Position numbers and translations under genes: made by a program. Positions 44,728-47,465 of a stretch of 64,000 nucleotides of DNA are shown here, in pieces; the first letter of the stretch is position 1, and every line of letters starts with the position of its first letter. The stretch is from Quadrisphaera sp. RL12-1S. GTDB lineage: Bacteria > Actinomycetota > Actinomycetes > Actinomycetales > Quadrisphaeraceae. The notes beneath the pieces are model-generated. The model had not been told where the DNA came from. It was given only the letters and a program-made list of their open reading frames with translations, and did no database searches. The stretch spans positions 248,001-312,000 of the forward strand of contig NZ_JACNME010000005.1 in NCBI RefSeq assembly GCF_014270065.1, given 5' to 3'.

Positions 44728-45825
44728 GTGACCACCACCGACGACGCCCCCGCCGTCGACGCGGCCGTCGACAACGTGACCGGCCTCGGCGCGATCCAGT
44801 CGGGCGCTGCCCGCGTGGACGTCAGCGAGAAGGCGATGATCAACTCGCGCGCCGACGTCAACCAGCTGCTGCCGCTGAAGTACGGCTGGGCGTGGGAGAA
44901 GTACCTCGCCGGCTGCAACAACCACTGGATGCCCACCGAGGTGTCCATGCAGGCCGACATCGCCCTGTGGAAGAGCCGCGACGGGCTCACCGAGGACGAG
45001 CGCCTCATGCTCAAGCGCAACCTCGGGTTCTTCGCCACCGCCGAGTCGCTGGTCGCGAACAACATCGTGCTGGCGGTCTACCGCCAGCTCACCAACCCCG
45101 AGTGCCGCCAGTACCTGCTGCGCCAGGCCTTCGAGGAGGCCGTGCACACGCACACCTTCCAGTACATCTGCACCAGCCTCGGCCTCGACGAGGGCGAGCT
45201 GTTCAACATGTACCGCGAGGTGCCCTCCATCACCGCCAAGGACGCGTGGGCGCTCAAGCACACCCGCAACCTCGAGTCGGGCGAGTTCTCCACCGGCACA
45301 CCCGAGGCCGACCAGGACTTCCTGCGCGACCTCATCGCCTTCTACGTGGTGTTCGAGGGCATGTGGTTCTACACCGGCTTCGCGCAGATCCTCAGCCTGG
45401 GCCGGCGCAACAAGATGGTCGGCATCGCCGAGCAGTACCAGTACATCCTGCGCGACGAGTCGATCCACCTGAACTTCGGCATCGACGTCATCAACCAGAT
45501 CAAGGCCGAGAACCCGCACCTGTGGTCCGCGGAGTTCCAGGCCGAGGTGCGCGGGATGCTCAAGGAGGCCTGCGAGCTGGAGATCGACTACGGCCGCGAG
45601 ACGATGCCCCGCGGCATCCTCGGGCTGAACTCCGACCTCACCTCCGAGTACATGCGGTTCATCACCAACCGCCGCTGCGGGCAGCTGGGCCTGGCCGAGG
45701 TGTTCCCCCCGGCCGAGAACCCCTTCCCGTGGATGAGCGAGACGATGGACCTCAAGAAGGAGAAGAACTTCTTCGAGACCCGCGTCATCGAGTACCAGAC
45801 CGGCGGCGGCCTGGCCTGGGACTGA
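44728..45825 (+). CDS. nrdB: Class Ic-like ribonucleotide reductase small subunit (Phe replaces radical Tyr)
   Basis: A 365-residue metal-cofactor subunit that generates the oxidant for NrdA. Metal ligands can be read as E106 (TAESLV), E137 and H140 (EEAVH), E210 (VFEGMW), E244 and H247 (DESIH). The residue four after H140, where class Ia/Ib enzymes have the radical Tyr, is F144 (HTHTF), and the first ligand is Glu instead of Asp. Ligand spacings (31, 34, 38, 104, 138 residues from E106) equal those I know for Chlamydia trachomatis NrdB (E89, E120, H123, F127, E193, E227). This points to a Mn(IV)/Fe(III) cofactor. GGAGGAG precedes the GTG start. Confidence 0.95.
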
Positions 45826-45838
45826 CCTCCTCCCGCGC

Positions 45839-45881
45839 ACGGCGGCCCGTCACCTCCCCCGAGGAGGTGGCGGGCCGCCGT
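45839..45881 (+). terminator. Terminator of the nrdAB operon
   Basis: A 19-bp stem (45839-45857 with 45863-45881) with one G-U pair and a 5-nt loop begins 13 nt after the nrdB stop. It closes the operon before the repeat-rich region that follows. Confidence 0.85.
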
Positions 45882-45902
45882 CGTCGTCCCCGCCCTCCCT
45901 CA

Positions 45903-45927
45903 TCCCGCACTCGCGCACCCCAGTGCT
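45903..45927 (+). repeat. Left copy of a perfect 25-bp inverted repeat
   Basis: This 25-bp sequence (begins TCCCGCACTCGCGC, ends CAGTGCT) is the exact reverse complement of 47023-47047. The pair is 1.1 kb apart and encloses the DUF559 gene. A shared 12-bp core, CCCGCACTCGCG, recurs at 45946. Confidence 0.9.
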
Positions 45928-45945
45928 CCTCCAACGCCCCTCCAG

Positions 45946-45971
45946 CCCGCACTCGCGTCACCGAGTGCGGG
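45946..45971. repeat. Palindromic hairpin element
   Basis: CCCGCACTCG, six bases (CGTCAC), CGAGTGCGGG: a perfect 10-bp stem between the left 25-bp repeat and the DUF559 gene. It shares its CCCGCACTCG arm with that repeat. Confidence 0.8.
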
Positions 45972-46060
45972 TGGCGTGGGCAGTGGCGGCGAACAGCGGT
46001 CGTCCACAGCCTGGGCGCACACGCCAGCGCGGCGACCGCCGGACCGGCGACAGTGCGCGG

Positions 46061-46951
46061 GTGCCCTCCCGACACAGCCCCTGGCCAGACCACCTGCCCG
46101 ACGTCTTCCTCGGCTCCGAGCTCGTCGCCCAGGGCGCGCTCACCAGGGCCCAGCTGCGCGACCCCCGCGTGCGCCGGTTGTTCGTCAACGTCTACGCCCC
46201 CCGCTACCTGGAGCCTGACCACGGCCTCCACTGCCGAGGAGCCTCGCTGGTCGTCCCGTCGTCCGCGCGGCTCACAGGCCGGTCGATGGCGACCGTCCTG
46301 GGGGCGCGCCTGCGCTCGGGCGGGGACGCGGTGGAGTTCGTCGTCCCCCACCGGGACCGCCGGCCTGGCCCGACCGGCATCACTCTGCGCGGAGCAGTGC
46401 GCGGCCCGCTGGGCAGCGGCTACTGGCGTGGAGTCGCGCTGGCGAGCCCGGAACGCATGGCCTTCGACCTGGCGGCGGGGCACCCCGAGGAGGAGGCGGT
46501 CGCCCACCTCGACGCCGCGCTCGGGCTGGCGCTCTTCGAGAAGGCGACGGCGAGCGCGTGGCTCTCGGGGCGGCACGAGGACCACGTCGTCGGAGCGCGC
46601 GCGGCGGTGGCCCTCGCCGACGGTCGTGCGGGGTCTCCACCGGAGTCACGTCTGCGGGTCCGCCTGGTGAGAGCAGACCTCGGCGTCACCGTCGAACCGC
46701 AGCACGTCGTGACCCACCTCGGCCGCTTCGTGGCGAGGGTCGACCTGGCGATCGTCGAGCTCAGGATCGCCATCGAGTACGACGGCGCCTGGCACGGGCT
46801 CCTGGCCGACCAGCTGGCCAAGGACCGCCAGCGGCTCGACCGCCTGCGAGAAGCCGGGTGGATCGTCGTCCACGTGACCGCGGAGACGATGCGCGAGCGC
46901 GGCGCCGCCGTCGACGCGGTCCGCCGCGCCATCGCCCAGCGCCGTTCCTGA
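46061..46951 (+). CDS. DUF559-type endonuclease-domain protein
   Basis: A 296-residue protein. The N-terminal part (SELVAQGALTRAQLRDPRVRRLF) resembles the AbiEi-like winged-helix region found in related actinobacterial proteins. The C-terminal part (about 215-290) is DUF559/Vsr-like, with DLAIVELRIAIEYDGAWH and LDRLREAGWIVVHVTAETM. That fits the PD-(D/E)xK nuclease pattern (E/Y-D then a basic region). GTG 46061 is the likeliest start, with no clear ribosome-binding site. It stands alone and is bracketed by palindromic repeats and a 25-bp inverted repeat. A DNA-modifying role is family-based; no activity is shown. Confidence 0.75.
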   Translation: MPSRHSPWPDHLPDVFLGSELVAQGALTRAQLRDPRVRRLFVNVYAPRYLEPDHGLHCRGASLVVPSSARLTGRSMATVLGARLRSGGDAVEFVVPHRDRRPGPTGITLRGAVRGPLGSGYWRGVALASPERMAFDLAAGHPEEEAVAHLDAALGLALFEKATASAWLSGRHEDHVVGARAAVALADGRAGSPPESRLRVRLVRADLGVTVEPQHVVTHLGRFVARVDLAIVELRIAIEYDGAWHGLLADQLAKDRQRLDRLREAGWIVVHVTAETMRERGAAVDAVRRAIAQRRS

Positions 46952-46980
46952 GACCCGCCGCCCTCGCGAGGCCATGAAGC

Positions 46981-47002
46981 CGCACTCCCGTGCCTGAGTG
47001 CG
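46981..47002. repeat. Palindromic hairpin element downstream of the DUF559 gene
   Basis: CGCACTC, eight bases, GAGTGCG: a 7-bp stem related to the element at 45946-45971. It lies 29 nt after the DUF559 stop and just before the right 25-bp repeat. Confidence 0.65.
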
Positions 47003-47022
47003 CCTTCACGGGGGTCTGCAGC

Positions 47023-47047
47023 AGCACTGGGGTGCGCGAGTGCGGGA
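47023..47047 (-). repeat. Right copy of the 25-bp inverted repeat
   Basis: The exact reverse complement of 45903-45927, without mismatch. Flanking bases on both sides differ, so the identity stops at 25 bp. Confidence 0.9.
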
Positions 47048-47177
47048 GGGGCGGCGCCACCGAGGGAGCGGCGATCTCGGGATGCGGGGCCGCGCAGCGG
47101 GTGGGATGTTGGGCAGTTCGTGCGGATTCCACCCCACCTCGCCCCGGGGCGCGCAGACGCCGTTATCGTTCCGTGAC

Positions 47178-47465
47178 ATGTGCCGGAACATCCGCACGCT
47201 GCACAACCTCGAGCCGGCGACGACGCACGACGAGGTCCACGCGGCTGCGCTGCAGTACGTCCGCAAGGTGGCGGGCACGACCAAGCCCTCGCGCGCCAAC
47301 GCGGACGCCTTCGACCGCGCGGTCGCCGAGGTCGCCCACGCCACCGAGCACCTCCTGGAGGCGCTCACCACCACCGCGCCCCCGCGGGACCGGGAGGTCC
47401 TCGCCGCCCAGGCCCGCACCCGTGCCGCCCAGCGCTACGGCTCCACCGAAGCGGTGGCACCGTAG
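47178..47465 (+). CDS. DUF2277 domain protein
   Basis: A 95-residue cytoplasmic protein beginning MCRNIRTLHNLEPATTHDEV, the highly conserved start of DUF2277 proteins, followed by ALQYVRKVAGTTKPSRAN and a helical tail. The ATG has no ribosome-binding site. TATCGT at 47164-47169 ends 8 nt before it, so it may be leaderless. DUF2277 has no assigned function to my knowledge. It lies 71 nt before the smpB start. Confidence 0.9.
   Translation: MCRNIRTLHNLEPATTHDEVHAAALQYVRKVAGTTKPSRANADAFDRAVAEVAHATEHLLEALTTTAPPRDREVLAAQARTRAAQRYGSTEAVAP

Follow-up and report, generated by a model that had tools for sequence, protein, structure and literature searches.

Background

REPIN-RAYT (or REPtron) systems, as passages of PMC3116915 and PMC3733652 describe them (a further paper on such systems is PMC2817692), consist of short extragenic palindromes in many copies, mostly paired at a preferred spacing and capable of forming hairpins, and of an enzyme gene flanked by the repeats. 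For REPs that "apparently lack a dedicated transposase", the relevant passage of PMC3733652 leaves the mover open. Arrays of 23-bp repeats at fixed gaps are bound by AbiEi and Rv2827c, as described in part of PMC7319586, and the homing endonuclease I-Bth0305I and the Vsr mismatch endonuclease are close counterparts of the locus studied here in their nuclease fold.

We analyzed a 64-kb window (the whole stretch of DNA examined) of Quadrisphaera sp. RL12-1S, in which a gene of the family DUF559, still labeled "protein of unknown function" in Pfam, stands between palindromes, and compared six genomes of this one genus (G000-G005, with G000 being the window's own genome). The family resembles REPIN-RAYT in that its extragenic palindromes occur as spaced pairs, many per genome, and in that the enzyme gene is flanked by the same palindromes in inverted orientation. 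The enzyme is unlike, as RAYTs are HUH (Y1) tyrosine transposases and the window enzyme combines AbiEi and Vsr folds; the GCACTT-family flanks show no conspicuous GTAG or CGTC tag (25 isolated pairs, all of that family and one from another genus); and the pitch is 41-42 bp, compared to the 71 and 110 bp quoted for REPINs in the passages cited above. Because the defining enzyme and tag of REPIN-RAYT are missing, we do not class the system there despite its similar working, and because the enzyme class is unrelated we call it a new category, although weighing the repeat logic more heavily would place it with the REP kind. No earlier report linking DUF559 with palindromes, inverted repeats, or mobile elements was among the matches listed in the open-licence literature (preprints and most subscription papers lie outside it). 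On comparison of sequences, the locus looks like part of a small actinobacterial DNA repeat system that spreads itself and is of a kind hitherto undescribed. We read it, with a probability of about 0.7, as the enzyme-bearing copy of a REP/REPIN-like repeat family whose enzyme would bind, cut, and copy the palindromes.

Palindromes framing the DUF559 gene

The features of the locus are as follows (window positions, strand, description, and basis).

45888..45902, + strand: pyrimidine-rich outer tract, resembling the C/T-rich outer flank of the 25 isolated GCACTT-family pairs (sequence)
45903..45927, + strand: left outer palindrome P1, core 45907-45926; left arm of the perfect 25-bp repeat (sequence)
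45946..45971, + strand: left inner palindrome P2, core 45949-45968; 42 bp from P1 (sequence)
46061..46951, + strand: AbiEi-DUF559 gene, 296 aa, GTG start (alignment with relatives; Pfam)
46070..46621, + strand: AbiEi-like module, residues 4-187, presumed DNA-binding (structure model and fold matches)
46622..46948, + strand: Vsr / I-Bth0305I-type nuclease fold, residues 188-296 (fold and profile matches, invariant columns)
46980..47002, + strand: right inner palindrome P3, core 46982-47001 (sequence)
47023..47047, - strand: right outer palindrome P4, core 47024-47043; right arm of the 25-bp repeat; 42 bp from P3 (sequence)
47048..47056, + strand: purine-rich outer tract, counterpart of 45888-45902 (sequence; flank profile)

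A first, sequence-only reading of this DNA had described 45903-45927 and 47023-47047 as exact reverse complements, which we confirmed. Among perfect inverted repeats of the window whose two arms lie within 3 kb of each other, this 25-bp one is the longest (runners-up 22 and 17 bp). It is beyond chance, as 20 order-1 Markov windows reached a maximum of 18 bp and base composition alone predicts 4.8e-05 pairs of 25 bp. With mismatches allowed, the arms extend to 68 nt (45903-45970 / 46980-47047, 74% complementary), and palindrome cores of ~20 bp follow one another at a pitch of 42 bp on each side (45907/45949 on the left, 46982/47024 on the right). The two inner hairpins that had been said to share one core are both present, but the right one (46982-47001, GCACTCCCGTGCCTGAGTGC) does not contain the exact decamer CCCGCACTCG. 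This decamer was tried as a family marker and dropped, as its 28 matches in the window's own genome (12 in the window and the C3 and C13 arrays described below, 16 single) compare with 51 for the reversed decamer. In the proposed genome-wide count, the decamer alone is thus undiagnostic; since the reversed control outnumbers it, we took the ~20-bp palindrome at 41-42 bp pitch as the diagnostic unit instead. The left half of the element folded better than shuffled sequences (z -4.3), and the right half folded no better than shuffles (z +0.4).

A predicted DNA-binding and DNA-cutting protein

The most likely gene start, chosen by alignment with relatives, is the GTG at 46061, giving 296 aa; among the relatives that a protein search recovered are Quadrisphaera granulorum and Quadrisphaera sp. 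INWT6, from the same genus as the window's genome. The gene lies between the ribonucleotide reductase small chain (Ribonuc_red_sm) on one side and DUF2277, then SmpB, on the other, and unlike in the AbiE type IV toxin-antitoxin system, no DUF1814 nucleotidyltransferase toxin is adjacent. For the 296-aa reading, the Pfam matches fell below their cut-offs (MTES_1575, 28.7 bits against 38.2; DUF559, 20.0 bits against 20.6), and a six-frame search placed DUF559 above cut-off at this gene. No other Pfam family was found in the protein, PADLOC reported no defence gene, and NCBIfam gave no match; AbiEi_1 and AbiEi_4 each occur in 2 of 34 relatives and are absent from the window protein.

A structure model built from a 34-sequence alignment reached a mean pLDDT of 94.5 (a model from 7 sequences, with pLDDT 41, was discarded). 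In comparisons of this model with known structures, residues 188-296 matched I-Bth0305I (3r3p; Z 12.9, rmsd 2.6, 96 residues) and Vsr (1cw0, Z 10.3; 1vsr, Z 9.6), while residues 4-187 matched AbiEi (6y8q; Z 10.2, rmsd 6.1 over 177 residues) and, at a level that possibly reflects just a common arrangement, Rv2827c (1zel; Z 7.8). The sequence profile alone matched 3hrl (7.5e-06) and 3r3p (8.3e-05). By these modeled folds, the protein is an AbiEi-type fold joined to a Vsr/I-Bth0305I-type nuclease fold, and the gene product is probably DNA-binding and DNA-cutting. It differs from all of these counterparts. Unlike I-Bth0305I, it is encoded by a gene that stands free between other genes and is flanked left and right by complete palindromes, not within an intron or intein interrupting its own target, has an AbiEi-like half, and belongs to a family with many gene-less repeats. 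Unlike AbiEi and Rv2827c, it is fused to a nuclease fold and has repeats on both sides and across the genome, and unlike Vsr, it carries an extra N-terminal module and has cognate palindromes. Insertion sequences and MITEs of the DDE type are also unlike this locus, as Pfam and fold comparison detected no DDE transposase in the gene-bearing form.

Eight residues are invariant in the 34-sequence alignment (E195, R199, G208, D228, E239, D255, W267, and V269), and dN/dS ranges from 0.13 to 0.37, with the nuclease part under purifying selection. Where the palindromes differ, dN/dS of the N-terminal part versus the nuclease was 0.42 vs 0.13 (own genome vs G002) and 0.52 vs 0.17 (G003 vs G002); where they are alike, it was 0.32 vs 0.29 (own genome vs G003) and, for the second protein kind described below, 0.09-0.11 vs 0.19-0.21. 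These six pairs give a hint that the N-terminal part evolves faster than the nuclease where palindromes differ and not where they are alike.

Flanking inverted repeats at other DUF559 genes

The window's genome contains six DUF559 genes, and four of the remaining five are likewise flanked by inverted repeats (104 nt, 75%; 55 nt, 82%; 100 nt, 84%; and 43 nt, 79%), with the repeats of different genes being unrelated to one another. These four further genes with their own palindromes lie at C3:348737, C5:49245, C3:32893, and C18:59089 (loci L049, L050, L051, and L053). The sixth gene did not pass the flanking inverted-repeat test (score 15.0). A TGCAGCTGACGCCCC palindrome occurs near the 5' end of its open frame (L052:4148-4192), and identical letters are found at the ribonucleotide reductase-SmpB site of G004 (L067).

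Beyond this genome, we sampled 63 DUF559 loci (13 genomes of the family plus ten Geodermatophilaceae loci), of which 60 were testable and 3 were left out at contig ends. Flanking inverted repeats scored above the maximum of 351 null placements at 39 of the 60 loci and above their 99th percentile at 47. Against mismatched left and right flanks, a null whose maximum of 309 in the family set probably stems from orthologous loci in opposite orientation, 37 of 60 exceeded the 99th percentile. In a class-wide sample (29 loci examined, 2 left out), 11 of 27 loci were above the 99th percentile of the mismatched-flank null and the other 16 had no excess of flanking inverted repeats; DUF559 itself occurs in 45 of the 60 genomes sampled from the class. 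Close to Quadrisphaera the association is strong; across the class it exists but is far from universal. The window-clade locus of G004 scored low (11.5) because its gene is split by an insert. This insert is ~1 kb long and bounded by 25-bp inverted repeats matching at 22 of 25 positions (L059:2230-3296).

Gene-less pairs and a fixed pitch

In the window's own genome, the same or nearly the same palindromes form arrays without a DUF559 gene at C3:108073-108218, C6:42120-42181, C10:45675-45736, and C13:99442-99545, and variant gene-less arrays lie at C5:315666-315727 and C16:22075-22178. The C13 array consists of three palindromes at 42-bp steps, the outer two oppositely oriented, and folds better than shuffles (z -9.6), as does one G001 pair (z -3.9). 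In the C3 array (L015), four palindromes follow one another in tandem, exactly 42 bp apart and with spacers that are identical, unlike the variable spacers of most pairs. Among five repeat loci searched at Rfam gathering cut-offs, no known RNA family was found except a SAM-IV riboswitch near one pair; it lies 1.5 kb from the pair (L163:3103-3201, - strand) and is unrelated to the repeats.

Across the genus, paired GCACT-10-AGTGC palindromes with 10-40 bases between them occur at 14, 43, 39, 57, 1, and 0 places in G000 to G005, respectively, and the reversed pattern at none. Of the 43 pairs in G001, the four beside the gene were left out, and all 39 that remain (two of the GCACTC type, and two pairs sharing one palindrome) have a pitch of 41 (29 pairs) or 42 bp (10 pairs), though 30-60 was allowed; their orientations are FR in 16, FF in nine, RR in eight, and RF in none, with six unclassified. 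The single GCACT pair of G004 is an exception, with a pitch of 45 bp. Among listed sites (to which the G005 sites and most sites of the G003 GCACTT count do not belong), 12 of 13 close neighbors of the window type in G003 are 42 bp apart and one is 84 bp apart, all 34 close-neighbor distances of the CGCA type in G004 are 41, 42, 84, 125, 126, or 168 bp, and one CGCA pair in G003, at 30 bp, departs from the pitch. By a crude ORF caller, 14 of 20 G001 pairs overlap no called ORF, compared to 115 of 709 control windows, and the dispersed pairs often lie just behind gene ends (read by eye and uncounted). Comparison thus shows that the palindromes are dispersed as gene-less pairs and arrays at 41-42 bp pitch, at sites that differ between species.

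Around the 25 isolated pairs, the outer flank is C/T-rich over ~12 bases, G at +1 and A or T at +4 are retained in the inner flank, and the center is variable. Complementarity between their left and right outer flanks was on average not above that of mismatched pairs, and single pairs do fold that way. The 21-22 bp spacers differ from copy to copy (mean best identity 15.7 vs 11.6 for shuffles, mainly at the spacer edges), so that copying of the whole unit is not plainly visible.

The pitch extends beyond the genus. We defined the window subfamily as all 17 rows with at least 43% identity to the window protein (the next row has 36%), and when their flanks were compared with themselves, the best offset was 40-42 bp on at least one side in all 17 loci, from five genera and with differing palindromes. 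Other Geodermatophilaceae loci gave an offset of 23-24 bp in eight of nine cases, and five loci of other DUF559 subfamilies gave 19 bp. Since the pitch is constant within the subfamily though palindromes differ, we read the spacing as set by the protein. In a Mantel-type test over the 17 loci, protein and repeat divergence showed a weak Spearman correlation of 0.16, a value reached in 391 of 5000 permutations, with flipped orthologous flanks inflating some of the scores.

A fixed 41-42 bp pitch would also suit cooperative binding by an autoregulator or a chromosome-architecture protein, with the palindromes as operators or dispersed sites kept by host selection, nothing moving, and the nuclease fold vestigial or used in repair. 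The AbiEi fold of residues 4-187 is in line with such a role, as AbiEi and Rv2827c repress their own promoters via 23-bp repeats at set gaps according to the part of PMC7319586 concerned. We consider this explanation unlikely, because the repeats flank both gene ends in inverted orientation, because pairs often stand behind gene ends and their presence at a given site varies among close relatives, and because E195, D228, E239, and D255 are invariant in 34 proteins and the nuclease part is under purifying selection.

Copy numbers follow the cognate protein

Three kinds of the protein occur in the genus, namely the window kind (G000, G002, and G003), flanked by GCACTC palindromes, a second kind (G001, G002, and G003), flanked by GCACTT palindromes, and a third kind (G004, where it is split, and G005), flanked by palindromes of the CGCA type. 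Counted on both strands in G000 to G005, with copies beside the gene included and perfect palindromes counted twice in the GCACTT and CGCA counts, GCACTCKCSCRCSCSAGTGC (GCACTC type) has 11, 1, 11, 39, 0, and 0 matches, with its protein only in G000, G002, and G003; GCACTTTCCNNGGMAAGTGC (GCACTT type) has 1, 95, 52, 40, 0, and 0, with its protein only in G001-G003; and CGCARCCGNNNNNCYGGYTGCG (CGCA type) has 11, 16, 24, 19, 74, and 68, with its protein only in G004 and G005. The reversed patterns of all three had no match in any genome, and CGCA palindromes show 11-24 matches even in genomes without that protein. The window-kind protein of G002 is 71% identical to the window protein, and all 11 window-type matches in G002 belong to a TCCCGC subtype of its own, which also accounts for one of the 11 in G000.

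Comparison of these genomes, which being all of one genus are not six independent cases, shows that protein and palindromes form a cognate pair. The earlier suggestion that the protein might recognize the palindromes is strengthened accordingly by comparison, as the counts follow the cognate protein and an AbiEi-type fold is predicted ahead of the nuclease fold. The sequence-only reading had also held that a repeat common away from DUF559 genes would speak against a unit of this kind; as worded, this condition does not discriminate, since the repeat does occur away from the gene but is abundant mainly where the cognate protein is present, as expected of a non-autonomous repeat.

Dedicated HUH enzymes are well documented for REP-like repeats (from passages of PMC3116915 and PMC3733652), and the palindromes could be ordinary REP elements moved by an unrelated enzyme, such as a RAYT elsewhere, or terminators, with the DUF559 genes as passengers. 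We regard this as very improbable, given that the flanking repeats are different at each of four further DUF559 genes of this genome, that pitch follows the DUF559 subfamily and match counts follow the cognate DUF559 protein, and that tool consensus found no terminator-like site in 45700-47300; no sigma-70 promoter was called there either.

Occupied, empty, and exchanged sites

At the window site, the gene is present in G003 and G002, G005 has nothing, G001 has a gene-less pair resembling that beside the C18 DUF559 gene of the window's own genome, and G004 has tandem copies of other palindromes. This intergenic site behind the ribonucleotide reductase small chain and upstream of SmpB (L066, L067, and L068) has a palindrome family that varies by species and looks like a hot spot.

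Ten G001 pieces were queried, of which the C7:116368 site was unmatched; nine sites were compared and seven aligned. At five of the nine, a GCACT palindrome was present in G002 or G003, and at four in no relative, while none of the eight sites located in G000 had a GCACT palindrome. At C10:87410, G001 alone has an occupied site. At C5:77607, there are two, three, and four palindromes in G001, G003, and G002, respectively, and a decayed one in G000. Exchange of types is seen at C3:105618 and C2:216509, with the window type in G003 where G001 has the GCACTT type, and at C3:57037 (L162), with an unrelated palindrome pair in G000 and G003 (L200 and L199) and the GCACTT type in G001 and G002. The empty sites that had been proposed as a check in relatives thus exist, at the window site in G005 and at C10:87410. 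No target-site duplication was seen in the seven site alignments, in which the element ends are not sharp. The description of the locus as a small mobile or self-maintaining element is accordingly supported by comparison (dispersed copies, counts that follow the protein, and empty or exchanged sites) but not by a target-site duplication, and movement itself is what we infer from these patterns.

The same data bear on homing, by which the gene would spread by cutting gene-less arrays and being copied in by recombination, the arrays being targets and not mobile units. Homing would fit a nuclease domain whose best fold match is the homing endonuclease I-Bth0305I, a C13 gene-less array that looks like the window element minus its gene, and arrays with and without the gene in one genome. 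It is quite unlikely in our view, as one or two window-clade genes per genome (one in G004, split) against up to 95 repeat matches is the opposite of what efficient homing would give, the gene still has complete palindromes to its left and right, and at orthologous sites the arrays themselves have been gained, lost, or exchanged.

Proposed mechanism and significance

In the preferred reading of the locus as an enzyme-bearing repeat copy, the AbiEi-type module, judging from its fold and the precedent, would bind the palindromes as a multimer, and 41-42 bp, being four helical turns, would place neighboring sites on the same side of the helix. The Vsr-type domain, with its nuclease fold and conserved residues, may then nick or cut at or beside the palindromes, possibly when single-stranded pairs are folded into hairpins. 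Repair or strand transfer would copy a unit of ~110 bp into intergenic sites, often just behind gene ends, as the dispersal and the site differences suggest. The autonomous form would then be represented by the gene with its flanking inverted arrays, and the non-autonomous form by the pairs; the same enzyme activity may keep copies alike within a genome. Counting against this reading are the target-site duplications and sharp ends looked for and not found, the variable spacers, the weak correlation of protein and repeat divergence, the 16 class-wide loci with no excess, the poor folding of the right half, the CGCA matches in genomes that lack the protein, the G002-subtype match in G000, and the two exceptions to the pitch.

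Taken together, and with somewhat more reserve than for the locus alone, we think it reasonably probable that this is a REP/REPIN-type system of RAYT-independent origin. It would be built on AbiEi-Vsr-fold nucleases and be common among actinobacteria or at least in a portion of them; each genome would have several private enzyme-palindrome pairs, the enzyme subfamily would fix the pitch (41-42, 23-24, or 19 bp), and the palindromes would turn over with the DNA-binding half. One DUF559 subfamily thereby gets a testable role, and the data suggest that the enzymes dedicated to REP-like repeats need not be RAYTs. As several genes per genome come with different palindromes and set pitches, they offer natural material for studying how DNA is read by AbiEi-type proteins.

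Two further observations concern the second and third protein kinds. They share one orthologous site, at which the gene is flipped relative to its flanks in G004 and G005 (L080 and L081) compared to G001-G003 (L075, L077, and L079), and the 74 CGCA-type matches of G004 persist although its gene is split.
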